From Hyaloperonospora brassicae (Eukaryota; Oomycota; Peronosporomycetes; Peronosporales; Peronosporaceae), in assembly GCA_947650285.1 (NCBI GenBank), contig CANTFL010000183.1:1-64000 (forward strand): a stretch of 64,000 nucleotides of DNA, given 5' to 3'. The notes beneath the pieces are model-generated. The model did not search any database and had not been told where the DNA came from. It was given only the letters and a program-made list of their open reading frames with translations. How positions within the stretch are numbered: the first letter of the stretch is position 1; every line of letters begins with the position of its first letter. A program made the translations under genes and the position numbers. Positions 1 through 55,689 of this stretch are shown in pieces.

Positions 1-967
1 CACGCATTGTACTTAAGTTCATGGGCAGCTTTACAATCAGATTGTAGTTCGGGTCTGCTACGGGACCCACCGGCACAAAGAAGGGTGTGAACGCTTTCTG
101 CAAATAGCAGAATGCCAGCACTTGACTCAAGAAGATGCGCAGCTCGCGCAAAAAGTATAAGGCTCGATCTTTCCGTCTCTACTACTCTTGGCTCGATTGG
201 TCTTTTAAACAGACGGGGGTGCAGCAATCCAGGCGTACAGTTGCTCAAAATGGGCATGGCAATCACTATTTGTTGGCGTGCCCGGCTCCACGTGACCACA
301 GATGTCGCGGACACGCTCGGATCGTTTTCAAATAGCACCGGCAAGTCATCCGGTAGACCCAGATCAGTACAAGGGGTCGACGCTGTGCACGCCAAGAACA
401 TGATTGGCAGGCTGCCTTGAGCTTGAAGAGTTGTCAACATCATCTTCAAGGTCAGGTGTATTGATTCGATTGCATTCTTCCACCGTAACTCAGCCTACGG
501 AAGGTAGAGTACATAGAGTGGCATTTCTGCGCCTTGGTGAGTCTCCGAATGAGTGCCTCTTCTGAATATTGCGAGTTCGAGTCGGCAACGAGGGAAGGGT
601 AGTACAGTGAGAAGTGTGTCAATCGTCTAATGAATGCAGTAGCGTCGGACCGATATACTGCTGTCCCATGCCAGTTTTGCCTGCAATCAAGACGCGAGGA
701 GTGGCAAAGCTACTTAAGCTTCGATATCAAGTGGACACGCTTCCTTTGCTCGCAACGTGCTCCTCTACGATCAGTGGGAAATAAATCACGACAATCAGAG
801 CGCATCCAAGAACTGTAGCTGCTTTTGCTCTTCTTGTAAGCAGCAGTCACGCCTGCAAGGCATGCACGATGGAAAGCCTTAGGACAGGCATCACAGCGAC
901 GAAGCTCGACCTCGTTTCCACGACAAACATTGAACTGATAATAGTCCACGATCCCATATATATCCAC
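1..967 (-). pseudogene. Broken ATAD2/Yta7-like PHD-AAA-bromodomain gene, 3' part off the left edge
   Basis: Three pieces on the minus strand occur in the order expected of a chromatin AAA ATPase. First, positions about 933-855 encode a degenerate PHD finger (C-D-A-C-P-K-A-F-H-R-A-C core; the first Cys of the usual first pair is missing). Second, positions about 708-616 encode a peptide beginning TPRVLIAGKTGMGQQ and ending LLHSLDD, which resembles the second AAA module of ATAD2/Yta7; a further AAA-like stretch (PIMFLACTAS) lies at about 475-340. Third, positions 145-1 encode ELRIFL...PFFVPV...NLIVKLPMNLSTMR, the first half of a bromodomain. The pieces lie in different frames, with stops after LLHSLDD and elsewhere. 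Family knowledge: ATAD2/ANCCA proteins bind acetylated histones. The start lies upstream and is not identifiable. Inference: a decayed copy of a chromatin factor; short introns could explain some but not all breaks. Confidence 0.65.
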
Positions 968-18540: not shown

Positions 18541-18700
18541 ACCATTTGTGACAATCTGGTTCTTGAAAACATAAGGTTTAGCATTCTCGTAAAAAAATCA
18601 CTGAGCTCAGTGATAATATTGTCATTTATGACAGTACGAGAATAGAGAACATTAAGTTTAGCATTATCGTCACAAAATTACTGAGCTTTGTGACATTGTT
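18541..18700. promoter_or_regulatory. 80-bp tandem repeat with palindromes upstream of the effector
   Basis: Two adjacent imperfect 80-bp units (18,541-18,620 and 18,621-18,700) share blocks such as tttagcattctcgt/tttagcattatcgt and accatttgtgac/gtcatttatgac. Unit 1 contains a perfect 18-bp palindrome (ATCACTGAG/CTCAGTGAT, 18,597-18,614). Unit 2 holds GTCACAAA...TTTGTGAC (18,669-18,694) at the equivalent place. The array lies about 75-235 bp upstream of the effector ATG. A role as promoter or operator-like element is inference. Confidence 0.45.
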
Positions 18701-20942
18701 GCGATGACCCAAGGGTCTACTCATTGGTTAATATAATTATTATATTGATCTACTTATCGCTGCTAGACGCGCGCAATGGATGGTGAGCGAGAAACCTACA
18801 CAGGATATTGTAGTTGTACCTATAGTTGAAGTAAGACACAGGATTTTGATTGAAAGAACATTTACTATACTGAATGAAGTTCTACTTTCACCATTTGCTA
18901 TGCTTCTTTCTCGCCTCCCCCAACAATCACGTGTATGTGTATCCGAGAGCACGCACGCTGTAATGATAATGTTGTTAAATGTGAAGCGTGTTGATGAACG
19001 ATTGCGACCATCAATACCTGTTACAGATAGATCTAGCTATCCGGTGGAGCTAATGACGAGTATCGTGCAGTGTTACAGGACAGACCTCTCCTCGTATAGC
19101 TCCCAGTTGATAGTTTGCTGGTGCTCGGGGTCGCACGGGGTTGACGAGCGGCAAGTCGGAAGGCTGGTGTCCACGTTGAGCGACGTCTCGAGCCAATGGG
19201 ATGAATGGAGATTGACAAATTGTCGGAGTCTCTGGGCGAAACTAAGCTCAAATGGTAGGTGAACCTGAAGCACTTAGATGGCACGAATCGCCACGGTCGT
19301 GGCATATCTGGCCATTTTGTTAAACTCGCAGATCAATGAGTTCAGATGGCAAGTAAAATATCATCCACTAGAGCCCGCGATATACATATAGTGCATCCAG
19401 GTGCAGTTTGAGAGATGATCGGTGTCGCCAAAGCTATGATACAATCGTAGGGCTGTCCCCAATGACATGCAACAGCGTAAAGCAGCTGGTATTTTTCTGG
19501 CGCAAACCGAAATTACACTACAGTACGGAGACGTTTATACGCCATTGAAGAGATCCAGGTGCTTTACTAGCAATCCAGACGATACCGGAAGTATGTAACT
19601 GGTCCTGAAGGCGGACGACGACGGACCCGATCAAACCAGATCCGGGGTTACCGCGCGATATTCCTGAAAAGAAAATGATCAATTGGTCCGTGTGCGACTG
19701 TCCCAAACTCGGGAGTTGCAAGGGTGGCAGAACCGAATTAAACATTAACTCATCCGCCCAAGCTTATCTAACACGTGGCCAGCACGAAATTCTCAGCAGG
19801 GTCACCGGTCTAGTGAGTGGACCCACGGAACCGAGCAACTGCACGACGAAAACCGTCTTGGGACGATGCGCGGTGGCTAGCATCGAATAAATTTGGATCA
19901 TATATTCGACATAGACGCTTCGACCAAATTCCGATAAGTAAAATCGAGACAAAACGCCATGATGCGTCCGTGTCCCTCAAACACGATTTTACGAGCTACA
20001 AATGTCCTCACGCACGGATGATGAGCAGGTTGCACTAAATCCAAGGCACGCGCGAGAGGTCCGAGAAGCTCCAGTAAAAAGATTGTGCACGACAGGGTGA
20101 TAACGGTGAGACTGCCTAACCTGCTCCAAACGGCAGCAATACTTTGCAACGTCACCGGGATAATGGGTAAGTTATAAAAAAATATAGCTCTTGGTGTCAT
20201 AGATAGTCGGTAAGCAATCGGTTTTGTAGCCGGGCAGAAGAGATTGTTCGCCAACCGGTTCCAGCGAGAGGAAATATTGAAATTCAGCCGGTACAGTTCC
20301 TCGTAAACATTAGGGGACAATGTCTTGATGCGCAAGAGATCACGCCAATCCACTCATTCAATACTGCAAGCAATTAGCGAGTGCCTAAGAAGTATAATAC
20401 GGTTCCCGTATTGCACAATACCTGCGAGTTTCCGCTGCCTAGGCGCAAGCTTAAGTAAGACATGAGCTCGCGGGAACCATCGGCTCGTGCCGACTCATAT
20501 CTAGGCGATACGTGTTAGGTTCAGATGCGCCTTAAACTGTATTTGTATTTTATGACCACACGTTGTAGCTTGATCGCATTAAGCCATAGTTTAAACCGGG
20601 GAACCGCTACACTTAAGCCGTTTCACGCGCTGTAACGTTAATTACAAACGAATTTGAACTCTATACTCTTTATTAAACGTTCCTTATTTTCATAAGAGAT
20701 TATAGATTCCGGGGGAGGCTATCTAGATGGTATAGTAGGAAAGTTATCTACCAAAGCGTAAGAGAAGCGCAAAAATGTCAGGTATTGGAAGGGTAGAGTG
20801 GCTTAGCGGGATCAAACGGTGTGGTACAATGAAATTGTCCTGACCTTGTATATGTTCACTATAATGCATCATTAGGCGTCGCTTTGACACTTTTAAAACT
20901 AACCCCGTGAAGTCGGTAAGTCAGACCTTCCTTGAAAGAATC
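18701..20942. other. Gene-poor stretch upstream of the effector
   Basis: Two longer frames exist: 18,780-19,262 plus (160 codons) and 19,898-20,353 minus (151 codons, with a hydrophobic central part). Neither has recognisable motifs. They may be chance frames or gene relics. The rest shows nothing. Confidence 0.35.
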
Positions 20943-35155: not shown

Positions 35156-35604
35156 TGTAACGGGGCACTGTTGACTACGTACTTGTTGACCAGTACGGAG
35201 TATACTTCCACTGACGACAGTGGTCGACAGTGCCCTGCTAGGTGTTTTAAGGAAACACAGACGAAGAAAAGGAGACTAAGTAGCCAGACTAGTCTCTTGG
35301 TAAAAGTAAAACTGTTATTTAATACAATTGAGTCCTATCACTCTTGTGTCTCTGTTCGTCCTGACTTAATTATACTAATATAACTATATGTATGATGACG
35401 TCTACTCACCACCCATTGCGCGCGTCTATCAGCAATTGGTGGATTGATATCATCACGATATCAACCAATGAGTAGACTCTTCGGTCATCCCAACAATATC
35501 ATCATCATCCTTTGTGATATTGTTAAAAGAATAAGTCGACGTGATATTCTTTATTGTCATTTTATACTTATTGACAATATCATGTAACGGGCTACCCCGT
35601 TACA
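35156..35604 (-). repeat. 3' LTR of the gypsy element (minus reading)
   Basis: 449 bp with a 10-bp terminal inverted repeat TGTAACGGGG...CCCCGTTACA. The distal end folds on itself (TGTAACGGG next to CCCGTTACA). It also contains TTGATATC...GATATCAA and AACAATATCA...TGATATTGTT hairpins. Confidence 0.9.
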
Positions 35605-35718
35605 TCACCTCTCCCTTATCTGATAGTCACCCTGTGACTATCGAAAACTTGGTGGCCACCCGTTGGACACCAGCGGGACAGGGAGCATTTTTTTGGTCAG
35701 ACCCATTCACGCCTAACC

Positions 35719-37353
35719 TTGCCTCGCATAGTTAACATGTCTATGCGAGGTGATTCGAAGACCACACAGCCTGCTGCTGTGCCAGCCTCTGCGGCAGACG
35801 CTTCGTCGTCTGCAGCTTGTTCTCCGTCTGCAGCAGAAGGTGCTGCAGACGCACGCGGTATCGCACCACGTGCACATGATGACCTTGGCAATGAGGTCAT
35901 CAATTATGGCGAGTCAGACGTGCCTGACTCGCGCAACGTTCCAGAGGCATCCCGATCACCGGCGGTGCCTCATCGTTCGTCAAGAGCACTGTCGAACGAG
36001 CGGACTCGTGAAATGCATCACAGTATGTTCGGCAGTGATGATGAACTCTATGGTGAGGACCACTATGCCTCACCAGTATCAACTCGTGCTTCCCCGCAAG
36101 AGCGTGATGACGATGGCGAGAGTCATCGTCATTATGTAAGCCGTGGTACCGAAACAGGTACCACATTAAATCGTGATGAGCTCAAGCCGTGGCGCTTGCC
36201 CGAGCAGCTCATCAATAGCTTGTCTCACGAGACAAGCTAACACCATCGAATTCCTTTATTCGATGCAACTAAGCTTCATGGCTTGAGTTCCAGCGCGAAG
36301 AACTTTGGCGCTGAAGAAGACTTCTATCTCGATGCCTTCCTTAGGCATCGATGGTATAATGGCAACCAAAAGCGTGGCAAGAACTTGCTTTTGGCAGCGT
36401 GAAACGCCTTCGTCCAAAACGTCAAGAATTTTAGACGAGAAGGATGGCTTAAGATGCTTGAGGCGATACGTCTCAAGTTCAAAAAGCGAACGCCAACCGG
36501 TGCAAGGTACCGGTTGCATAATTTGTCAAGTGAGGCCGGTATTCCGTGCCTCACTTGGGGTTATCCTTGTGCGAGTTGTGTTAACAACTCGCAACGTGCA
36601 CATAGGGACGTGTATTCCCTAAGCTTGACCTGAGTAAGGGCACAAATCTCGGCTGAGATGCGGGACGCGATTGCAAACTTGCAATTCGTCTACAAGCGCC
36701 AAAAGCGCGTGTTTACCGATGGGCCCGAGGACCTATCGGATGAGTCTCGTCATACTGGTGGACGAGACCTTCAACGTCAGCCATCAGCTGGGAACGAGGT
36801 TCCCAGCTGTCAAAGGAAGGTGGGTACACACGCCACCGGATGAGGTAACTCGTCCTTGATTCTGAATCGCCATGGTGGTTCAAGATACGCTCCACAATAA
36901 TGCGTTGACCACCGTGGGAATCCACCAGTGGTTCCGGTGGTGGTGGAAAGACAAGGTCCGGCTCAGCCGTAGGGCTTGCAGGAGACTTTAAGTAACCACG
37001 AGCGTTAACTGACTGAGCTGAGGGAGGACGTCGATCACGAATACGATCGTCGGCACGCCTTGCAGTCGGAAGTGCGACGTCTTCGTGCCGATCGGGAGAA
37101 GGACCGATCGGAATTCGCGTTCGCTCAGCTTGAGAGTGAACGCGAGAGGCGTCGTTTGTGCGACGAGCTAGAGACGGCTCGTCGCGAGGCCGCTTCGATG
37201 AAGGATCAAATCCTTTCGACGAAGGACCAACTCCAGTGTTTGGTCCGTGATCACAAGAATCTGTTGGGGATTCTTGAGCGCGCCGGTTATCTCCGTTCTC
37301 GCATGAAGCCTCGTACTGATGGTACGGGCGGAGACGACCAACATAAAACTTAG
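35719..37353 (+). pseudogene. Antisense ORF of the gypsy element, decayed, with coiled-coil end
   Basis: Three plus-strand open blocks share one reading frame: 35,719-36,240, about 36,241-36,843 (interrupted by two TGA codons) and about 37,018-37,353. The likely start is the ATG within the first block (MSMRGDSK). The first part is Ala/Ser/acid-rich. The middle contains FGAEEDFYLDAFLRHRWYNG and LKMLEAIRLKFKKRTPTGAR. The end is a strongly charged coiled coil (ELREDVDHEYDRR, VRRLRADREKDRSEF, LESERERRRLCDELE). Stops are concentrated opposite the chromodomain (36,844-37,017). The last block overlaps, on the other strand, the pol linker between integrase and chromodomain. Function is unknown. By analogy some plant gypsy elements, such as maize Grande with its gene23, carry antisense genes at this place. 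Confidence 0.5.
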
Positions 37354-38193
37354 GATGCGTGCGCATCTTCTACGAGGCAATTTGATCGTGTATGCATTTC
37401 CCTTGCGGTGCAACACACGAAAGGGACCAATGTATTTCGGCAGTAGTTTACTACTGCCGACATTAGTGACTACATGTCCAGGTAAGTTTACCGTAGACAG
37501 TATCACGAGGTCGTTAACCTTAAATGAAAGAACATTGGCTCTTCCTTTCTTGTCTGCGTTATGTTTCTGGCGGTCCACCGCATTTGCGATCGAGTCCTGA
37601 ACGAAATGGACTAACGCCTCTCGAGTAAGCAGGAAGTTCTCTACTGACTCGTTGTTTTGTTTTTCAGTGCGCTTCGGGCGCACTGCTAAGAGATATTTCT
37701 CTTCTTCAACGAGGGTGTCCTCATCCTCTCTGGCATTGTCGTTGACGATGCTGAATATTCCAGCATCGTCATCACTGTCTGATGTATCAGCAGCTTCACT
37801 GTTACTGCTAGAGCCAATTGCGTCGATGTCGACATTATCGACATCGGCATCAAACGTATCGACGTGTGCGATGATACGTGATGAGCAAGAGCCAAAATGC
37901 TTTTTGCTCGAGCGAGTCCCTCCCCCCCTTAACCCATATTCACTCTGTATTAGGGCGGGAATACGTGGGTGCCTTATACCATTCACGTAGAACGGTGTAT
38001 ACGTCATGGACGCATGCACGGAATTGTTGATGGCGAATTCGGACATCGGTAAGAACTCACTCCAGCTCGAAGAGGAGTGGACGTTTCCTCGAAGGACTTC
38101 TTCGAGGACGCAGTTCGCACGTTCTGTCTGACCATCTGTTTTAGGATGGTCAGAGGTTGACATTTTCAACCGTGTTCCCAATGTGCGGAACAC
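36713..38193 (-). pseudogene. Gypsy integrase C-terminal half, linker and chromodomain
   Basis: Begins with the end of the integrase core (FRTLGTRLKMSTSDHPKTDG then Q-T-E-R-A-N, holding the catalytic Glu). It continues through the acid-rich tail (SSNSEAADTSDSDDD) to FYVGRLRPYHQYE, the normal exit of oomycete gypsy integrases. A frame change near 37,370 leads to a Pro/Arg-rich linker. A chromodomain closes the protein (about 36,890-36,725: VERILNHHG...SYLIRWRVYPPSFDSWEPRSQL), with the aromatic and W-E-P signatures present. Chromodomains of chromoviruses guide integration to marked chromatin; whether this one binds a methyl-lysine mark cannot be read here. Confidence 0.85.
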
Positions 38194-38806
38194 GGATTGC
38201 CAAAACTCCGCCGTGAACCGAGGATCACGGCCGGATACGGGTTCACGGGTAATTCGTGTAGTCGAAACACTGTGTTGATGAAGACACGCGCACAGCCATG
38301 TGCATAGATCAACTCAGGGACCGCAGCAAGATGCATCATCTTGCTGAAACGAACCACAAACACAAGAGCACCATTATTCTTGTGAGTGTCTTCGGGTTTC
38401 CCGAAGACAAAGTCCATGGAAACGGACTCCCAACCTTCTATCGGCACCGGCAGAGGTTGCAACGGTGCACGGGATGAAAGACTAGGTTTCAACCTATGAC
38501 AGGCCTCGAAAGAACGAATGTACTTGCGGACAAACTGATACTGGCGGGCCAGTAAAAGGCGCGACTTACCGTGAGGTAAGTCTTTTCTCGGCCACGATGC
38601 CCACCTGATGGCGCATCGTGACATTCGAACATTATGCGTAATCGCAATTCATCATGATCGGGAACGACGACACGAGGAGTGTCGTCGGCAACTGCTGTGT
38701 AATACAGCAGACCATTGCGAGTCGTATATCGATCCAAAGAGGAACGGTATAGAGATATCAAATCCGACAAGGATTTTCGGGATGGTTTCGCAAGATGACC
38801 CATCAA
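38166..38806 (-). pseudogene. Gypsy integrase zinc-binding and catalytic N-terminal part
   Basis: Frame 38,806-38,489 carries the H2C2 region (HDAPSGGHRGREKTYLTVS and RAFYWP). The following frame 38,624-38,166 has YIRSFEACHRLKP, in which one Cys of the C-x-x-C pair is lost. The core first Asp is in WESVSMDFVFGKPED. The second catalytic Asp (R-D-P-R-F at about 38,225) sits in another frame, so a frameshift splits the core. The protein is inactive as encoded. Confidence 0.8.
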
Positions 38807-38860
38807 ACGCAGGAGATTCGTGTCTCCTGCTTACGCCTTCCGCACGTCGTCGAGTAAAGG

Positions 38861-40210
38861 CTACGACGTCATGATGACTGATAGAGCCGCAATAGTGGAC
38901 CAGGCCTCACTGTTGACGTGTCTGGTCGGCTCGAAATCCGGCCGACGTAATAGCGCATCAGCAACGACGTTAAGTAGTCCTGGTTTGTACTCCACGGAGG
39001 TGTTATACTCCGCAAAGAAAGACAACCACCTCGCCATTCGTTGCGAGAAGTGGGGACTGCTAGCAGCCGTGCGTAGTGACGGATTGTCCGTATAGACGGT
39101 GAACGGTCTATCTCCCAAGAGATAGACGCGAAACTTAAACAGTGCGTACTTCATGGCAAGGAGTTCCTTGTCATGCACTGGATAATTGCGTTCAGCTAGT
39201 TGCAGCTGACGCGATTGATAGCAGACGACGCGCTCCGCGCCGTCTGTGTCATACTGCATCAACGCACAGCCGGTAGCAAAATCGCTGGCGTCACAGACCA
39301 CATGAAATGGTCTATCCTGATCTGCAATCGCCAGGATGGGCGATTTCATCAAGTTTTTATTGATACTTTTAAAGGAACGCTGACAGTCAGCGTTCCATGA
39401 CCACTTCACATCTTTCTTGAGCAAGCAAGAAAGATAAAAAGTCATCTCGGCGTAGTTGCGCGAGTACTTTTGCAAGTACGCCGCTAAGCCAAGGAACTTA
39501 AGAATTCCCTTGACATCGACTCGCACTGGCCAGTCGGTGATTGCCTTGATCTTTTCGGAATCGGGGCGGGCGCCGTGTTTACCCACCATGCATCCAAGAA
39601 GTGGTATTTCGCTAGCCGCAAATACACATTTCTTGAGGCTGGCGTACAACTTATGCTTGCGTATAAGTTGAAGAACCTGACGGACGATAGTTAGGTGGAC
39701 TTCAACGTCCGTCCTTCCATCCATAGCCCGGCTATGGACGAACACATCATCGAAATAACTCGGTGCGAAATCCCGCACCGGTCTCAACAGATTTGTAACG
39801 CATCTGTTGAATGTTGCAGGGGCATTACTCAGCCCCTGTGGCATCACTAGCCACTCCCACAGCATCCCGCTGAGGGTACTCACTGCCGTGAACGGGATGT
39901 CCCGTTCACGCGTGATGATCTGATAGAATCCATCCATCAGATCCATGGACGAAAAGATGGTACTCTTTGACATACCATCTATGAGTACGTACTTTCTTGG
40001 TATCGGCATCTGAGCCGGTACCGTTGCAGCGTTCAACTTGTTCAATGCGTGAACTATCCGCCATCCTCCTGTGGCCTTTCGCACACAGAAGGTCGAAAAG
40101 ATGTGAGGGGATGTCGATTCCCTCACATGGCCTGCTGCTAAGCGATCGGCAAAGAACTTGTCGATCGCTATCACTTGTTCACGAGGCATTGGCCACTGTT
40201 CATGACACAA
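38861..40210 (-). pseudogene. Gypsy reverse transcriptase and RNase H
   Basis: An open 449-codon block. RT motifs in order are PMPREQ...F, LAAGHVRESTSPHIF, FSSMDLMDGFYQI, FTAVSTLSGMLWEWLVMPQG with LSNAPATFNR, and the catalytic Y-F-D-D. The RNase H motif VVCDASDFATGCALMQ and the VYTDNPSL and AEYNTSVEYKPG segments follow. It is the best preserved part of the element and catalytically plausible, but it is separated from the upstream protease by a frame change at about 40,200 and from integrase by another. In life it would copy element RNA into DNA. Confidence 0.9.
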
Positions 40211-41262
40211 TATTTCGACCCCGGTTTGAGCTCGATCTCGTGTCGAGTGTCTTTGTCCTTAGGCAGCTCGCAAGGCACGGATTCGGGGAACACATCCTTG
40301 AATTCGATCAAATCCTTATACAAAGGATTTTCCTGAAGCGACTTCCAGGATTGAGATTCATATATCTCAATCCGAGTCTTCTCATCGATGACACTTTCGT
40401 CCATCGATGAACTGCTGAGAACCCTCTCGGTCTCAGTAAACACCGTTCCCGATCGAATATCGGTAACGTACTCGTCCTCCGCGACGAGTACACAGATCTG
40501 CTTGACTTTGCCACTACGCAGATCACGCAAGAACCGTTTCGGTTCTAGCGTCGGCAGTTGAGTTATCTCCGAAGTTAACTTCGGAGGCGCAACCAGATCA
40601 AGCGTGTAAGCGCCTACGCTTCTTCCGTCATCAACCAAGACATTCACTGTCTCGATTACTTCCTGGGAAGTCACATCCACAGGGTCCAGGAGAGCTTTCT
40701 CCACAATGTAGTGATCATCTACATTGTGTTCTTGTACAGTCGTGCTAACGACCTTACCACAAGTGATGCCATCGCACTCACTCGTAGTACACCCACGTGA
40801 GTATGGGCGTTCCAAGATATTCGTCAGGTGGTTATATAAGGAACAAGTGGCAGGTATCGTAACCGATCGATACTGCCAGATCACCCTTGGCTCGTATCTC
40901 CTGAGCCATGGAAACCCTAAGATGACATCAAACTTGTCATCCAGATTGAGTACGATGAAGTCATCCTCGTACTGTTTATCTTCCAATGTGTAGTGGATTC
41001 CGACTACACGTTTCTCTACAGCGATTAATGCGCCTGTCGCTAGGCGCACCGTTTTCCTTGTTGGAGGTGTCTCCCGCTCCACGAAGTTGATACTTCCAGC
41101 CTCTAGTGACTGGCGACGAACAAAAATGTTCGACTCCCCACAGTCAACTAGGGAGCGAAGTGACAAGTCCTTTGTCACATCCAATGTCAAGGTGATGAGG
41201 GACACTTCATCACCAGATGCAGATAGACACAGAGACTGTGTGTCGGGAGCAATCTTCGTCAA
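40171..41262 (-). pseudogene. Gypsy aspartic protease region
   Basis: A 363-codon block. The retropepsin-like core contains L-V-D-C-G-E-S-N (D-x-G with Cys in the middle, where most retropepsins have Ser/Thr) and FDVILGFPWLRRYEPRVIW, the conserved second half. It ends with PKDKDTRHEIELKPGSKYC, which leads directly into RT but in a shifted frame. The protease would process the Gag-Pol polyprotein. Confidence 0.8.
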
Positions 41263-41312
41263 GAGATTTGAAAATTCTCTTGATGTTGCCGAATCAGCAG
41301 GGCGCTCCGCCC

Positions 41313-42440
41313 CTACTGACCCCGACCATTTTTTGATGTTCCGCTTCTCTGTTGCGGCTTTGCAATAGCAACGGACCCTTGTCCTCCAGTTCTTCTAACT
41401 GGTAGACGGTTACTGCGCTCAGCACCATGGAGTTCAGAGTAGGGGATACTACATTCGTATGCATAGTGTCCCAGCTTATGACATCGATGGCATCTCGCCA
41501 TTCGCTTGTCGTTCACAGGGCGAGGTTTCTCGCCCTCGACATGACAGAGGTCTATTGGTTCTGGACCTTCGACCGCTGATCGTCTTTGAGGACGATAGGG
41601 GGTCAACGTAGTGTGAGACTGTCTCACGCTATAAGCCTTCTTGCTCCGCTGCGAATATTGCTTCGGAGAGCGTCTTTAGCTCCCCGCGAAACAGGTGGTC
41701 CCTGACGGGACCATCTGCAAGACCTTGAAAGAATGATTGTGATCTTCAAAAACTCACTCACAGAGTTTACTACCATGCAACTTGCAAGGTAGCGTACATG
41801 TTGAGCGTAAGCGTAAACCTTACGCTTACCCTGTTTGATCTAAAGGAGTTGAGAGAGAGTCATGAAATCTGTCCTGGGAGGCTCAAACGTCTCACTTAGC
41901 AGGGTCTTGAAGATCGTCTAACGACCCGAACACGTTTGGGTCGAGTAACTAAAGATTCAGGGCCCAACTCCTGGCGTCCCCTGCCAAGTTACGACTGAGC
42001 AAATGCGACTTGCATTCGCTCATTGTCGATGCGACGGTCTTCGATGACACCGTCTACTTCGACGAACCATCTTAACAGGGAGTCGTTCCTCGACTTCCGT
42101 GATACTTGTATATCTCTTGCTTTAAAGACTCCTGTCGACGCTCACGAGTCGGCTCTTCGGACTGAGACTGTTGTTGTCTCAGTGCTTCGGTCCGCTGGTG
42201 ATCTTGTTATTTCAACAAGGTAACCTGCGCTAGCGACTCATCAATTTCTTGCTGCAAGAACTTGCTGATGACGACATGTTGCTGGTCCCTATCCCTTGAG
42301 GATAGCATGGCCCATATGGCTTCCTCGCCAACGGTCGAAGTCATTCGTTCGATCGCACTCCATTCGATGTCGCTCAAATGAGAGTAGCTTTCACGAGTTT
42401 CGTAAAATCTGTCGCCGTCTACATCGTCCAACATGTTCAT
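41313..42440 (-). pseudogene. Gypsy gag with CCHC knuckle, broken
   Basis: The first block (42,440-42,207) starts MNMLDDVDGDRFYETRESY just downstream of the 5' LTR and primer site. The middle (42,206-41,628) is frame-broken. The last block (41,627-41,313) has CHRCHKLGHYAYEC, a C-x2-C-x4-H-x4-C knuckle, before a basic/Gln-rich end. This is the normal Gag position in the element. Confidence 0.65.
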
Positions 42441-42490
42441 GTTGGGCGATGCGAGTGTGGTCCTTGGACGGACTACAAAGTGCTACCAGG

Positions 42491-42935
42491 TGTAACGGGG
42501 CACCGACGACTACGTACTGGACTATCAGTACGGAGTTTACCTTTCACTGATAACAGTGAAGGTCAGTGCCCAGCTAGGTGTAAACACTTACACAGAGGAA
42601 GGTAACGACTAAGGAAAAGGCTCTAGTCGTGGTAAAAGTAAAACTGTTATTTAATACAATTAAGTCCTATCACTCCTTGAATCTCTGTTCGTCCTGACTT
42701 AATTATATTAATCTCACTAAACGTATGATGACGTCTACTCACCACCCATTGCGCGCGTCTAGCAGCGATTGGTGGATTGATATCATCACGATATCAACCA
42801 ATGAGTAGACCCTTCTATCGTCCCAACAATATCATCATCATCCTTTGTGATATTGTTGAAAGAAAAGTCAACGTAATATTCTTTATTGTCATTTTATCCT
42901 TATTGACAATATCATGTAACGGGCTACCCCGTTAC
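42491..42935 (-). repeat. 5' LTR of the gypsy element (minus reading)
   Basis: 445 bp with the same 10-bp terminal inverted repeat as the other LTR. It matches 35,156-35,604 with many substitutions and small gaps. TGGTAGC-type primer site sequence abuts its inner edge on the minus strand. Confidence 0.9.
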
Positions 42936-43707
42936 ATGCTGAGTCGACGATTTGTATGAGATCAGCTGTCCATTAAGCTGGGGTAATGCAAATGAGGTAG
43001 AGAAGGACGGGGAGCCACACAAGTAGCTTCCATGAAGTTAAAGTAGAATCTAATCATCCACTTGTGTGCAAAGTGTCTATCTACCTTATGATACAACGCC
43101 TGCAAGCAATCCTTTACTGCATCATCCGGCTTATCTGACGGTCCGACTGAACCATATCTACAATATCCGATCACGCAAATGCAAATATTGGCACTCGATA
43201 TCAATAGGTTGGAGCTCCATACGCATTCATGTTGCGTTTAAATTCATTCCCCAAAGCATCCCGTCCCTTCGCGAAGCAGAAGAAAGACGAGCAGGTACGA
43301 ATCCCTACGCTTCATTGACGACCTGGGGTGGCGCATGCGTCGCAAACAGAGATCTACACTCAGTGATACGTCGATAGCGACGGGTCCACGTTGAAAGCTA
43401 AAAGAGTGCATGTGGTAGTGTACTTTCTGGGTGCAAGCTTGGCATGAATGTGAAGTAATTGAGCCAGCGAGCTCTCGGTTTAGTGTATGGTCTTGTGTGA
43501 TTGCAGCAGCGAGCTTCTTGCAGACAAAGAGTCGGATTGACACAAAGCAAACGTATGTACAAGATCCTGGTCACGAGCTGACCTCTTGCACTCGGACTTG
43601 GATCCATTTTCTGAGAAGCTGACGGCTGAAGGATTGTGTGTCCGGGCGACAAGCCGATAAGAACAGTCTGAAGCCTTAGGCATCTGTAGTTGCGCATAGT
43701 GGAATTT
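42936..43707. other. Unannotated stretch beside the gypsy LTR
   Basis: Overlapping short frames on both strands, with no motif recognised. Confidence 0.35.
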
Positions 43708-43772
43708 GCTACTTGCTACGCCGGTCCTTTCCTAATCTGTCAGACTAGGAAAGGACCGGCGTAGCAAGTAGC
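43708..43772. repeat. Perfect 27-bp inverted repeat (hairpin)
   Basis: Left arm 43,708-43,734 (GCTACTTGC...CTTTCCTA) and right arm 43,746-43,772 are exact reverse complements, separated by 11 nt. The hairpin is not inside a recognisable gene or LTR. It could be a small-RNA precursor-like foldback, a terminator or cruciform, or the collapsed ends of a small DNA element. Confidence 0.85.
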
Positions 43773-51605: not shown

Positions 51606-54600
51606 ATGGACGCCGCCGTCGCGCCCTCCGACGTGTACCACGCGCTCGAGCCGTCCACGGGCCACACGGCGTCGGGGGCCGCCGCCGCCCACGGCGACCG
51701 CCCGACGCTCGCGACGCGGGACAGCTCCGGCCGCGCGTCGGCCATTGCCGCCGCCGCCACGTCGCCGTACGAACCCGCGAGCGACTACCGCGTCGTCCCC
51801 CTCCCCCGTACGTACCCCCACGAGACGCCGTCGTCTCCGTCTCGTCCTCTCCCGGCGTTCTGCTCGAACGTCGTGATCACGTCCAAGTACACGACGTGGA
51901 ACTTCCTCCCCGTCTTCCTCCTCGAGAGCTTCCGCAAGTTGGCCAACGCCTACTTCCTCCTCGTCTCCGTCCTCCAGTGCATCCGCAGCATCAGCAACAC
52001 GGCCGGTGTGCCCACGACGCTGCCCGTGCTCGTGCTCATCCTCGCGGTCGACGCCGTGCTCGCGATCATTGAAGACCGGCGACGCCACGTGGCCGACGGA
52101 CACGCGAACTCGGCCCAGTGCCACGTGCTGAAGAGCGCCTTCACGGGCGCAGCAGACGCGTTGCAGAGCAACGCGACCGCTCTGACCACCGGTGCCGAAG
52201 CCGAAGAGGACGTTACCGACGACGAGGCCGTGATCCAGTGGGCAGCGCTCACAGTGGGGTCGGTCGTCAAGCTCTACAACCGCGAGATGGCTCCTGCGGA
52301 CCTCTTGATTTTGGCCGTCGCCGAGCCAAAGCCACAGGCGCCCGCTGGGATTTGCTACGTCGAGACAAAGAGTCTCGACGGCGAGACGAACCTCAAGCTG
52401 CGGCACGCGTGCGACGCGACAATGCACGTGCAGACCGCTGCGCAGGTCGCGGCGCTCGCGGGACAGCTGCGGTGCGAGAACCCGAACAAAGCTATTGGCC
52501 GCTTTGACGGCACGTTGCTCGTGACCGACGGCAGCGCAGGCGCGTCGGACGGGCAGCCGCAGCCGATTGCCATGAAGAACGTGCTGCTGCGGGGCTGTCA
52601 GCTGCGCAACACGGACTGGATCTACGGCCTCGTTGTGAACACGGGGCCCGACACGAAGATCATGCAGAGCGCAACGGCGGCACGGGCCAAGTGGAGCTCG
52701 ATCAATGAGACTGTGAACAAGATGATCATCTGGCTGTTCCTGCTGCTGTGTCTGTTTTGCGCGCTTTCGGCGACGCTGCAAGTGGTGTGGCTCGACAGTC
52801 ACATTGATGCCAGTTGGTACTTGAGCTGGGCGCCTGCGCTCGCGAGCCAGTGGTTTGTCGGGTTTGGCTACTACTTTCTGCTCATGTATCAAATGATTCC
52901 GGTCTCGCTGTACGTGACTATCTCGGTGGTCATGTTTATCCAGGCGATCTTTATGACGTGGGACGTCGACATGTACTACGAGCCAACAGATGCGCGCATG
53001 CTCGTGCGCTCGATGGGACTGAACGAAGAGCTGGGGCAGATTTCGTACGTGTTTAGCGACAAGACGGGCACGCTGACGTGCAACGTCATGGAGTTCCGCA
53101 AATGCTCGATCAACGGCGTGTTGTACGGGACCGGCACGACAGAGATTGGGCGTGCAGCACTGCGTCGAAAGGGCGTTGCGATACCCACAGACACGGAATC
53201 GGTTTCGTCACTGCATCGTGCCACTGTCCCGTACGTCAATTTCGAAGACGCGCGGTTGTTTAGCGCACTGGAGCGGCCGATGACGGACGACTCGCCGAAC
53301 CGTGAAGCTGAGTTTTTCTTGCACTTGAGCCTGTGTCAAACGGTCATTCCGGAGACTGTTGAAGATAGCGGTGAAGTGCGCTTTTCGGCCTCGTCACCTG
53401 ACGAACAGGCGCTCGTTTCAGGCGCCAAGTTTTTTGGGTTTAGTTTCGAGTCGCGCGGTTTGGGCGTCGCTCGTGTGCGCGTGAAACGTCCGGACCTGAT
53501 TCGTCGCTACGCCAATGGCTACCTCGGTCCGAACGCTTTGCTGGAGTTCAAGATCTTGGACGTCTTGGAGTTTACGAGTGATCGCAAGCGGATGTCAGTT
53601 GTGGTGCAATATCCCAATGGAGAGTACTGGGTGCTCACGAAGGGAGCTGACAACGTGATTTTTCCCATGCTGGCTAAGAACAAGAGTAACCCTGGATTAT
53701 TGAAGGAGACGAAGCGTCACTTGGAGACTTTTGGCGATGATGGGTTGCGTACGCTTACGATTGCGCAGCGACGTGTGGGCGAGAAGGAGTATTTGAACTG
53801 GAGTGCACGTTTTAAGAAGGCGAACTCTTCGCTAGAAGAAATTGACAAGCGCAAGAATGGCCAGCCGAACGAAATTGACAAGCTAATGATAGAGATTGAG
53901 CGTGATCTGGAAATGCTTGGTGCAACAGCGATTGAAGACAAGCTGCAAAACAATGTGCCTCGATGCATTGCTAATCTCATGCGCGCGGGTATGCGAGTGT
54001 GGATGCTTACGGGAGACAAGCAGGAGACTGCCATCAACATTTCGTACGCGTGTCAGCTCATGGACAGCGACATGGAGCAGTACGTGCTCAACTGTGATCT
54101 GTATCCTACGAAGGACGCGATTCTTGCACGATTGCTGAGTGCAAGCGCCGAGGTCCGTCAAGGCACCGGTCGCCATGCTGTGGTTATCGACGGTGAGTGC
54201 TTGGAGATGGCTCTGGCAGACGATCAGTGTCAGCAAGAGTTTTTGTCGCTGGCCATGGCCTGCGAGGCTGTGGTGTGCTGTCGTGTGTCACCCAGTCAGA
54301 AAGCTGAGGTGGTGTCACTAGTGCGTGCTACGAACAGAAAGGTGCGAACGCTGGCGATCGGTGACGGTGCGAACGACGTAGCTATGATTCAGCGCGCGCA
54401 TGTTGGCGTTGGTATCTCGGGCCAAGAGGGTATGCAGGCTGTGAACTCAAGTGACTATGCGATCGGGCAGTTTTACTTCTTAGAGAAGCTGCTTTTGCAC
54501 CATGGCCGCCTGAATTACAAGCGTATGGCTATTTTGGTTGGGTACATGTTCTACAAGAACATCGTGATGGTACTAGTGCAGTACTTTTACATGTTCTTCA

Positions 54601-55689
54601 CGGGTTCCTCTGGCCAGAAGTTCTACGGCGAGCTGGGGTTCCAGCTTTACAACGTCAGCTACACTTCCATTCCGATCATTGTGCTGGGTGTCTTTGACTA
54701 CGACGTGCCTTTCGAAGTGAGTCGATTCTTTCCTGAGCTGTACCTGGTTGGACCGCGCATGGAGCTTTTTAACAACTACACGTTCTTCAAGTGGATTTGC
54801 AGTGCTGTCTATGAAGCGGCTGTCATCTTTGTGTTCGTGGCTTACGCCTTCAACGAGAATTTATCTAATGTGGGCAGCGCGCCTATGGTTCAGTATGGAC
54901 TGCTCGCGTTTACGATGGTGGTTTTGGTGGCCAACATCAAGTTGTTAATGGTGCAGATGTCTTGGAGCCCTTACGCTGTGTCGTTGTGGCTGTCGGGTAT
55001 AATCGCGTACATCCCCCTCACCCCTCTCGTTTCGAGCTACTGGGTTGCCATGTTTCCGACGGAGTTCGGCAGCTTCCAAAATACACTAGGCCAAGAGACG
55101 TACTGGCTGGTAATCCCAGTCTGTCTAGTCGTTGCGCTCCTTCGTCATTTCACTTGGACAGCCGTCTGCCGCCGATTCTATCCGCTTCCGTGGCAGATTG
55201 TCCAAGAGCAGTATGTCTTGCACAAGGACAAGTACTCGACGCAAAATCGGCCAATGCCTTACATTGACGTCGAAGTAGGCGGCACATCGCACAACGGCGA
55301 AGGCGCTTTTACCGATACATCGTCTCCTGGTCGCGACACGGTACGTACAGCTTGTGCAGCGTTTGGTGCAGTGATCCGATCTCTGACATTGTCTACTGTT
55401 GTTTTTCATGCAGCGACCGCACGAGTATGCACATGCATTGGGTCGGTTCGATCGCAAACCGCGCGGGTCTGGTAGTGGGTTCGCGTTCAGCCATGACCCG
55501 CAGACTTCTTTGGCCGAGTCGTACATCTCAACGCACGATGTGCGTCAATCGTCGTCCGCAATGGAGGATGCTGAGCACCGCAGCAGCAGGTCTCGAGAAG
55601 ACTCGCGAAGCTCTGACTACGAGTCCTCGCGCTCGGGTGCTGTCGGGGATTCTACGAGAGCAACACGATCTTCGGGGTTGTTCGGTTAG
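51606..55689 (+). CDS. P4-type phospholipid flippase (ATPase), one 3' intron
   Basis: Joining 51,606-55,340 to 55,414-55,689 gives 1,336 residues. The N-terminal region has the P4 signature N-V-V-I-T-S-K-Y-T-T-W-N-F-L-P. The actuator loop D-G-E-T is at 258-261, phosphorylation motif DKTGTLT at 485-491, nucleotide-binding KGAD at 679-682 and hinge GDGANDV at 919-925. About ten hydrophobic segments follow the P-type plan. The family moves aminophospholipids to the cytosolic leaflet of plasma, Golgi or endosomal membranes, usually with a CDC50 partner. The intron (55,341-55,413, GTACGT...CAG, 73 bp, phase 0) is inferred: unspliced, the frame ends in a Cys-rich nonsense tail at 55,475; spliced, it continues into a Ser-rich tail ending SSGLFG. 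The start ATG at 51,606 has context aacaATGg. Confidence 0.92.

Follow-up and report, generated by a model that had tools for sequence, protein, structure and literature searches.

Short perfect hairpins tile a chromovirus-type Ty3/Gypsy retrotransposon in the oomycete Hyaloperonospora brassicae

The closest known kind of organisation to the one described here is genome-scale ordered RNA structure, which is found in hepatitis C virus, pegivirus and coronaviruses. According to the excerpted text of PMC7642675, structure in these viruses is genome-wide with many stem-loops, paired sites are less variable, and stem-loop positions are not common to distant relatives. The folding excess quoted there for whole genomes is about 7-23%, with 23% as the highest coronavirus value seen; single regions reach 35% and more. 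For cellular genes, template switching has been proposed to create and maintain the hairpins of rRNA genes (excerpts of PMC8794818).

We analysed a window of 64,000 nucleotides from Hyaloperonospora brassicae (contig CANTFL010000183.1, positions 1 to 64,000). It contains a decayed Ty3/Gypsy chromovirus on the minus strand (Table 1). An earlier note, based on the letters of the DNA, had placed a Gypsy element packed with short inverted repeats at 35,750-42,430. This span lies inside the element but is too narrow, since the element extends from LTR to LTR over 35,156-42,937. A younger copy (L037) has LTRs that are 99.0% identical and shares about 80% identity with the window copy. Pfam searches on three frames of a younger copy returned Retrotrans_gag, Ty3_capsid, RVP_2, RVT_1, RT_RNaseH, Integrase_H2C2, rve, SH3_Tf2-1 and Chromo. 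The order Gag-protease-RT-RNase H-integrase together with the chromodomain is that of a chromovirus, and LTRs of about 390-450 bp and 5-bp target-site duplications are in keeping with it. Of the 17 fetched copies in which an LTR pair was detected, 7 had identical 5-bp flanks; two of the 17 pairs are short (38 bp in L029, probably spurious; 167 bp in L032, where the locus end cuts it). L029 was excluded from the copy comparison because its supposed LTR pair is a 38-base match, and L026 and L030, which have no LTR pair, were excluded as well. The RT frame of the window copy matched 13 relatives at 59-78% identity. L046 had been considered as a third family; this was rejected, since it is an older copy of the window element's own family, as is L049.

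Table 1. Parts of the element and individual hairpins in the window copy.
Feature	Position	Strand	Basis or remarks
Ty3/Gypsy chromovirus, decayed copy	35156..42937	-	LTR pair 86% identical over 453 aligned bases; 60 perfect inverted repeats
5' LTR (sense orientation)	42491..42937	-	direct repeats; LTR-pair alignment
gag remnant with zinc knuckle	41313..41627	-	PF13917 at 3e-05, below curated cut-off
Aspartyl protease frame	40171..41262	-	RVP_2, E=1.6e-4
Reverse transcriptase + RNase H frame	38861..40210	-	RVT_1 8.8e-24, RT_RNaseH 9.1e-32
Integrase C-terminal (SH3 Tf2-1-like) frame	37168..38193	-	PF24626 1.8e-7
Chromodomain frame	36713..37366	-	Chromo 5.6e-11
3' noncoding part	35606..36712	-	counterpart in L037 is its densest segment, 18 repeats per kb
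3' LTR	35156..35605	-	direct repeats; LTR-pair alignment
Hairpin, arm 10, loop 4	42914..42937		LTR end; 11-bp arms if one more base per side is counted
Hairpin, arm 10, loop 3	41807..41829		compensatory pair in L037
Hairpin, arm 10, loop 7	40702..40728		compensatory pair in L037
Perfect 20-mer palindrome, arm 10, loop 0	40567..40586		
Hairpin, arm 10, loop 6	40348..40373		
Hairpin, arm 11, loop 2	39887..39910		
Hairpin, arm 10, loop 6	39410..39435		
Hairpin, arm 11, loop 1	39374..39396		
Hairpin, arm 10, loop 3	38387..38409		compensatory pair in L037
Hairpin, arm 10, loop 3	38324..38346		
Hairpin, arm 10, loop 8	38127..38154		
Hairpin, arm 11, loop 7	37743..37771		
Hairpin, arm 11, loop 2	37437..37460		
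Hairpin, arm 11, loop 3	36785..36809		compensatory pair in L037
Hairpin, arm 10, loop 4	36570..36593		
Hairpin, arm 10, loop 11	36527..36557		
Hairpin, arm 11, loop 2	36216..36239		compensatory pair in L037
Hairpin, arm 11, loop 5	35825..35851		compensatory pairs in L021 and L037
Hairpin, arm 10, loop 9	35722..35750		
Hairpin, arm 10, loop 4	35582..35605		LTR end

Repeats were counted as perfect, non-overlapping inverted repeats with an arm of at least 8 and a loop of at most 12. By this definition the whole element carries 60 repeats, each of which was followed in three other copies. The internal region (35,606-42,675) holds 54 repeats, or 7.6 per kb, whereas 200 dinucleotide shuffles averaged 1.34 and never exceeded 6. 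The excess described earlier as more than 20 repeats is real, but that count was too low. Fifteen of the 16 repeats listed at the time are exact; one, given as 41,809-41,831, is off by two bases. In seven younger copies of the 7.9-8.0-kb class with an LTR identity of at least 99%, the density from LTR to LTR is about 13-14 repeats per kb (12.9-13.8), and the 8-kb copy L037 holds 112 hairpins. Codon-preserving shuffles, a check suggested in the earlier note, were run 100 times on each frame of L037 and yielded 0.48 repeats in gag, 1.35 in pol and 0.74 in the integrase C-terminal frame. The observed numbers of 15, 56 and 14 are far above these values. The comparison with other copies, suggested in the same place, also bore out the hairpins: in L037, 57 of the 60 window hairpins still form 7 or more Watson-Crick pairs, and 12 show one or more compensatory pairs.

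Repeats are present in LTRs, genes and noncoding parts alike. As background, the rest of the window and five samples of other elements were used. Outside the element, about 56 kb of the window contain 25 repeats (15 in 1-35,342 and 10 in 42,938-64,000) versus about 11 expected from 20 shuffles of each part. No repeats were found in 10 of 18 sets of flanks of the copies, and the window copy's own flanks contain one. The flanks of two copies also carry repeats (12 for L036, 8 for L028). The five samples, each 4-5 kb, were picked from the Pfam RVT_1 listing and not at random. From domain lengths and translations, L042 and L043 read as LINE-type and L044 as a member of a different Gypsy clade. The host controls were three frames of the window, of which 51,606-55,475 alone was identified (flippase). 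A comparable hairpin excess was found in none of the other sampled RT elements or host frames of the same genome, and hairpin tiling is absent from L044, a retroelement of that genome.

A typical hairpin of the window element's family has a stem of about 9 bp, a loop of 4-6 nt and a span of 24 nt. In L037 the mean span is 24.0-24.5 in gag, pol, the integrase C-terminus and the noncoding 3' part, with the stem likewise equal across them, and every one of the 103 internal 5' arms is distinct. No common loop motif beyond base composition was found in the loops examined; of the 19 four-base loops in L037, two carried GNRA/UNCG-like motifs in sense and two in antisense. Facing third codon positions are rare in pol of L037 (7/56) but not in its gag (4/15), its integrase C-terminal frame (4/14) or L040 (11/31). 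Codon phase is therefore not a general rule. Two related, recently amplified families of the same genome are hairpin-packed as well, but their sizes differ: stems of 5-6 bp and 3-nt loops in one, stems of 8-10 bp and loops around 3-4 in the other. L048 is a near-identical copy of L041. No relatives were found among viral contigs in two scans. One scan of prokaryote genome contigs turned up just one candidate, a distant Ty3-like contig whose enrichment was weak (10 repeats with an arm of at least 7, mean z -1.2).

We then compared variation inside and outside the stems. Hairpins were picked in L021 and variants shared among copies were counted in 14 other copies. At third codon positions there were 10 shared variants per 360 stem sites versus 97 per 1142 sites outside (p=9e-5), and in noncoding parts 33 per 566 versus 143 per 1174 (p=3e-5), p-values which, as in all copy comparisons here, are optimistic because the copies share ancestry. 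Between subfamilies that are 83% identical, double changes kept Watson-Crick pairing in 36 cases and lost it in 14. The decayed copies L050 and L051 showed no compensatory changes. The hairpins are older than the individual copies and show low shared variation and slow compensatory change, as under purifying selection. Selection therefore appears to maintain hairpin pairing.

The folding strength was calculated for both strands. The folding excess was 46.2% for the sense and 49.8% for the antisense strand (11 fragments each), versus 0.2% for L042, -1.2% for L044 and -1.0% for the host flippase gene. Thus the minus strand, whose folding the earlier note had proposed to calculate, folds about as well as the sense strand. 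The mean sense z was -7.0 per 200 nt, and all 20 sampled 200-nt segments lay below z=-3 on either strand. The difference in mean z between strands changes sign with the kind of shuffle, and therefore we make no strand claim from it. The energies of single hairpins revealed no significant strand difference in L037 (p=0.35 as RNA, 0.23 as DNA) or L040 (p=0.30 and 0.43).

We favour, at a probability of roughly 55%, the reading that the whole genome of this chromovirus-type Ty3/Gypsy element is selected for local self-folding into short, perfectly Watson-Crick hairpins, on both strands and with a stem size set by the element. As to function, we infer that two complementary strands would both be required to self-fold, the sense genomic RNA and its minus copy (antisense RNA or minus-strand cDNA). 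Folded in this way, the strands would be compact and kept from annealing into a long duplex usable by host RNA silencing, while a single stem may be too short to serve as a silencing substrate. Because stem length differs by family within one host, what fixes the size is probably a partner encoded by the element, either Gag/nucleocapsid or reverse transcriptase, and not the host. The same family-specific sizes count against a purely host-silencing benefit. More tentatively, and with the odds somewhat against it, the three families may represent an oomycete chromovirus clade with a "hairpin code" that is strand-symmetric, genome-wide and strictly Watson-Crick. An element protein would set a separate stem ruler for each family, with stems of 5-6 bp and triloops in one, stems of 8-10 bp and loops around 3-4 in another, and stems of 8-11 bp and 4-6-nt loops in a third. 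Selection at synonymous and noncoding sites would preserve the code. This would be a new organisation of a retroelement genome.

Among the alternatives, structure of the sense-strand genomic RNA only survives best. The hairpins would then be an extreme case of genome-scale ordered RNA structure, serving packaging, compaction or shielding in particles. The strong sense folding and the compensatory changes are in line with it. Loop composition likewise hints at one preferred strand, counter to a strand-symmetric reading: sense loops of L037 are purine-rich (p=5e-4) and A is enriched in the loops of all three families, its excess over T being significant in L040 (p=0.012) and not in L037 (p=0.10) or L041 (p=0.24). 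Against it, no advantage of G-U over A-C was observed in this family. One-mismatch stems in L034, L027 and L037 had 12, 12 and 13 G-U versus 12, 14 and 12 A-C. Shared variants gave 14 G-U versus 20 A-C, a second test with the L021 hairpins 4 versus 9, the majority states at L021 pairs 20 versus 21, and pairwise comparisons 20/41, 39/46, 25/24 and 26/28. In the L040 family two such tests conflict. The constraint in the window element's family looks strand-symmetric, and since G-U is tolerated no better than A-C, folding of the sense RNA alone is insufficient as an explanation. Together with the nearly equal antisense folding, this makes the sense-only alternative unlikely. The ordered RNA structure considered in the earlier note is supported as selected, ordered folding, by compensatory changes, depleted stem variation and strong folding of either strand, and is doubtful as a property of the sense RNA only.

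The strand symmetry of the mismatches would also suit a role at the DNA level, in which double-stranded DNA forms hairpins or cruciforms, or only the minus-strand cDNA folds, for protection, compaction or integration. The repeats in LTRs and noncoding parts point the same way, as does the slight A-C excess over single and shared variants (59 versus 41 G-U), which corresponds to G-T on the minus strand. However, loops centred on 4-5 nt and the composition of the sense loops resemble single-strand hairpins, and cruciforms are without direct evidence. We consider this role improbable.

Slightly less probable again is a mutational process, which the earlier note had raised as a source of quasi-palindromes. 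Here the element's reverse transcriptase would fold the nascent strand back and copy one arm into the other, with no benefit to the element. Such copying would produce strict Watson-Crick pairing without preference for wobble, and the family-specific sizes could be a ruler of the enzyme. At one pair, 17 copies divide 8 to 9 into two Watson-Crick states, and none is intermediate. However, copying or reversion at 1:1 predicts about 28 shared double changes in noncoding and about 22 in coding parts, and only 1 and 0 were seen for hairpins picked in L021; when the hairpins were taken from L037 instead, double changes accounted for 4 of 55 shared variants. Transitions make up 43 of the 56 distinct double changes between subfamilies, a share to which coding constraint could add and which fits two independent hits (69%, p=0.25) but not one copied hit (51%, p=1e-4). 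Changes were not one-sided either: in 30 of 115 hairpins (at least three substitutions; ungapped in L021) the left/right split is more even than random, 41 versus 55 expected. Frequent arm-to-arm copying is contradicted; a process of this kind may still act rarely.

Finally, chance, an artefact of composition or codon usage, or one inserted unit copied many times can be dismissed with near certainty, since dinucleotide and codon-preserving shuffles yield about 1 repeat, the 5' arms of L037 all differ and the RT frame matches its relatives.

If confirmed, these elements would be a eukaryotic retrotransposon clade with the strongest genome-wide hairpin constraint we have come across, acting at synonymous sites, and with a hairpin size that varies by family inside a single host. 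As tiled and untiled elements occur in one genome, it becomes directly testable whether a mobile genome folds so pervasively for packaging, to escape RNA silencing or to protect its cDNA. Synonymous and noncoding sites of such elements would not be neutral, which affects dating and phylogeny of the copies.

In the open-licence literature searched, no prior description of such hairpin tiling was found, and the earlier statement that no equivalent is described is not contradicted there. The element resembles Ty3/Gypsy chromoviruses in its Ty3-type capsid Gag, protease, RT, RNase H, integrase with Tf2-1-like SH3 and chromodomain, LTRs and 5-bp target-site duplications, and differs in its hairpin tiling. 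With the multiple dispersed packaging signals of RNA virus assembly (excerpts of PMC6281560) it shares many stem-loops along the genome, but no common motif beyond base composition was found in its loops. Like the template-switch hairpins of PMC8794818, as excerpted, its hairpins are perfect and show compensatory changes. The signature of that process, instant paired changes and multi-base conversion of one arm, was not seen (1 versus about 50; arms 41 versus 55), and a frequent process would have left far more shared double changes; those present resemble two independent hits. As in genome-scale ordered RNA structure, the element is structured throughout, with many stem-loops, less variable paired sites, and hairpin positions that distant relatives do not have in common. 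Unlike those viral genomes, it has perfect stems whose length is uniform and characteristic of the family, it gives G-U no advantage on the sense strand, and its folding excess is 46-50% compared with about 7-23% for whole genomes in the excerpts of PMC7642675; its LTRs are included, and the carrier is an oomycete LTR retrotransposon in genomic DNA.

Inverted repeats were counted when perfect and non-overlapping, with arms of at least 8 bp and loops of up to 12 bases. The internal region of the Ty3/Gypsy element in the window held 54 such repeats, whereas 200 dinucleotide shuffles averaged 1.34 and never exceeded 6. Repeat density began and ended at the element boundaries; the window outside the element (approximately 56 kb) held 25 repeats versus about 11 in shuffles. 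The earlier note had listed 16 inverted repeats, 15 of which were exact and one shifted by two bases, and had counted more than 20. The hairpin excess is confirmed, is no artefact and is stronger than had been claimed. The frames of the window copy match Ty3/Gypsy protease, RT-RNase H, a Tf2-1-like SH3 domain and a chromodomain. It is a decayed copy; the full domain set, including a Ty3-type capsid, was found in a younger one. In several other copies, open frames as long as 539 aa run antisense across the 3' part; they may be coding or arise from the palindromic sequence.

Positions of the element and of other features observed
Feature	Sequence	Position	Strand	Remark
Ty3/Gypsy element	window	35,156-42,937	-	LTR pair 86% identical
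Internal region of the element	window	35,606-42,675		
Antisense open frame	window	35719-36240	+	
Inverted repeat	window	43708-43772		27-bp arms, 11-base loop; just outside the element
Three inverted repeats in 150 bases	window	18597-18746		surrounding part otherwise repeat-poor
Flippase gene	window	51606-55475		3 repeats of arm >=8 (loop <=10) vs ~0.5 in codon-preserving shuffles
Inverted repeat near pol-frame start	L040	26-53		encodes PVGAGRPTG
Inverted repeat near pol-frame start	L041	from ~41		encodes PVGAGRPTG; L041 otherwise without long stems
Inverted repeat near pol-frame start	L037 pol	100-125		
Ty3-like pol, eukaryotic-looking	L047	1-3612		filed as Acidobacteriota MAG

The 100.6-Mb genome was searched with the RT DNA as query, which gave 2,188 candidate places on first look. 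Forty were scored, and 19 further copies were taken with their flanks. In seven copies of a 7.9-8.0-kb class with LTR identity of at least 99%, the internal density was 12.9-13.8 repeats per kb, and the 5' LTR held 6. An eighth copy with this LTR identity, L021 of a shorter subfamily, had 11.2 per kb internally. Ten of 18 flank sets were free of repeats, and the flanks of the window copy held 1. The flanks of copies L036 and L028 held 12 and 8 repeats in roughly 1 kb, perhaps from neighbouring copies.

Copy L037 (LTRs 99.0% identical) carried 112 repeats over the entire element, or 115 with loops up to 16. Densities per kb were 12.6 in gag, 13.9 in pol, 10.2 in the integrase C-terminus, 18.0 in the 3' noncoding part and 15.3 in the LTR. 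Mean stem and span were equal between genes and noncoding parts, and all 103 internal 5' arms were distinct. The codon-preserving shuffles proposed in the earlier note were carried out, and the density lay far above them (56 repeats in L037 pol versus about 1). Stems whose codon phase sets third positions opposite one another were rare in L037 pol (7 of 56; other phases 25 and 24); they were not rare in L037 gag, in the L037 integrase C-terminal frame or in L040 (11 of 31). With loops up to 16, stem lengths in copy L034 formed a peak, with 37 cases at 8 bp and 34, 25, 13, 4, 0 and 1 at 9 to 14 bp, and the hairpin span was 24.3 +/- 3.0 nt.

Two related families of the same genome, L040 and L041, also bear hairpins. 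Their pol sequences are 51% and 50% identical to that of L037, and both amplified recently, since many of the 40 scored places for each were 99-100% identical to the query. L040 had 31 repeats of arm at least 8 in 5 kb versus 1.29 in codon-preserving shuffles, with 17, 9 and 5 stems of 8, 9 and 10 bp; loops of 4 (9 cases) and 3 (7 cases) were commonest. In L041, 2 repeats of this arm length were found versus about 1 in such shuffles. Its excess lay at 5 bp (77 versus 29.4) and 6 bp (48 versus 9.7), with little at 7 bp (5 versus 2.6), and centred on a 5-bp stem with a 3-base loop (32 versus 3.4). A nearly identical L041 copy had the same stem spectrum. Three hairpin positions were common to L037 and L040 (random shifts: mean 0.76, maximum 4); therefore, the sites turn over between families and the habit persists.

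As comparison sequences we used other RT-bearing elements, L042 and L043, which we take to be LINE-like, and L044, presumably a Gypsy element of another clade. Their frames had no repeats of arm at least 8, and L042 was slightly high at 5 bp (35 versus 22.9 +/- 5.1). Three long frames elsewhere in the window had 3, 1 and 1 repeats of arm at least 8 versus about 0.5 each in shuffles. The flippase gene among them matches a protein of the host, Hyaloperonospora brassicae, at 100% identity over 97% of the query. The folding excess of L037 (11 fragments of 350 bases per strand, 12 shuffles each) was 46.2% sense and 49.8% antisense. It was 32.6% for the window copy, 16.4% for L041 and 13.0% for L040, and 0.2%, -1.2% and -1.0% for L042, L044 and the flippase gene.

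Some further features were observed. Among 125 stems of L041, 89 had a pyrimidine as the 5'-side closing base and 76 had a purine as the outermost 5' base; L037 showed no such orientation preference. The inverted repeat near the start of the pol frame, common to all three families, may be a separate functional signal. Inverted repeats of 7-9 bp are mildly in excess in contig L047, which is probably misbinned, because its pol looks eukaryotic and Ty3-like.

Support for selection on folding is good. Of the 60 window hairpins, 57 retained 7 or more Watson-Crick pairs in L037 and 12 showed a compensatory pair there; both checks on other copies had been suggested in the earlier note. Between L037 and L021 (82.8% identical), 36 double-changed pairs were still Watson-Crick and 14 were not, and 118 pairs were altered on one side. 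In L021, L022 and the window copy, all of the subfamily other than that of L037, distinct double changes that stayed Watson-Crick numbered 56 (transitions in 43 cases) and distinct single changes 283. Because picking both from the same sequence was to be avoided, hairpins were chosen in L021 and variants counted in 14 copies from the subfamily to which L021 does not belong. Shared variants at third codon positions numbered 10 per 360 sites in stems and 4 per 278 in stem interiors versus 97 per 1142 outside (Fisher p=9e-5 and p=6e-6). In noncoding parts they numbered 33 per 566 in stems versus 143 per 1174 outside (Fisher p=3e-5), with 30 per 176 sites in loops. Single-copy variants were mildly reduced in stems (96 per 1632 versus 358 per 4617, p=0.012). 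These p-values are inexact because the copies are related. The pattern is the one left by purifying selection on the lineage that replicates, with free decay afterwards.

Template switching has been proposed to maintain hairpins in rRNA genes, as put forward in PMC8794818, and therefore frequent correction of stem mutations from the opposite arm had to be tested. Equal two-way correction predicts about 28 noncoding and 22 coding shared double changes, and 1 and 0 were found. Double changes made up 4 of 55 shared variants when hairpins were picked in L037, and one pair was split 8 to 9 among 17 copies with no intermediate; such copying may therefore occur rarely. Changes were not biased to one arm. 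Transitions make up a share of the double changes that agrees with two independent hits (69% expected, p=0.25) but not with one copied hit (51% expected, p=1e-4), although coding constraint could also raise this share. Frequent copying between arms does not account for the hairpins.

From what is generally known of RNA helices, stems under selection in the sense RNA would be expected to accept G-U far more readily than A-C. One-mismatch stems in six copies showed no G-U advantage (G-U/A-C 12/12, 12/14, 13/12, 10/15, 9/9 and 6/8), and background outside hairpins predicts about 1.07:1. Shared variants gave 14/20 and, with hairpins from L021, 4/9; majority states at L021 pairs gave 20/21, and pairwise copy comparisons 20/41, 39/46, 25/24 and 26/28. 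Antisense folding was about equal in strength to sense, and single-hairpin energy did not differ significantly between strands. Other observations speak against full symmetry. Sense loops were enriched in A in all three families (p=7e-4, 1e-3 and 4e-3). The strand-specific comparison of A with T was significant only in L040 (p=0.012; L037 0.10, L041 0.24), and a purine excess was found over all loops of L037 (p=5e-4) and not of L040 (p=0.37). In the L040 family, changes from L040 to L045 gave 14 G-U and 5 A-C, whereas one-mismatch 8-bp stems gave the opposite, 4 and 15. Given the loop composition and these conflicting tests, we conclude 'not sense RNA alone' rather than 'DNA'. The data moderately support a strand-symmetric folding constraint. 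The inferred purpose would be to keep both strands compact and apart, beyond the reach of silencing, with a hairpin size that the element sets.

No description of such hairpin tiling was found in one open-licence library, judged by title and start of abstract. Among known kinds, genome-scale ordered RNA structure comes nearest. In PMC7642675, genome means of the folding excess in 350-base fragments are 7-10.7% for HCV, approximately 15% for SARS-CoV-2 and 23.4% for the top coronavirus, with single regions at 35% and a peak over 50%. The element resembles these cases in its genome-wide spread and in that paired sites vary less. The differences lie in the magnitude of its folding, in its perfect stems of uniform size, in the absence of a wobble advantage and in its being a retrotransposon.
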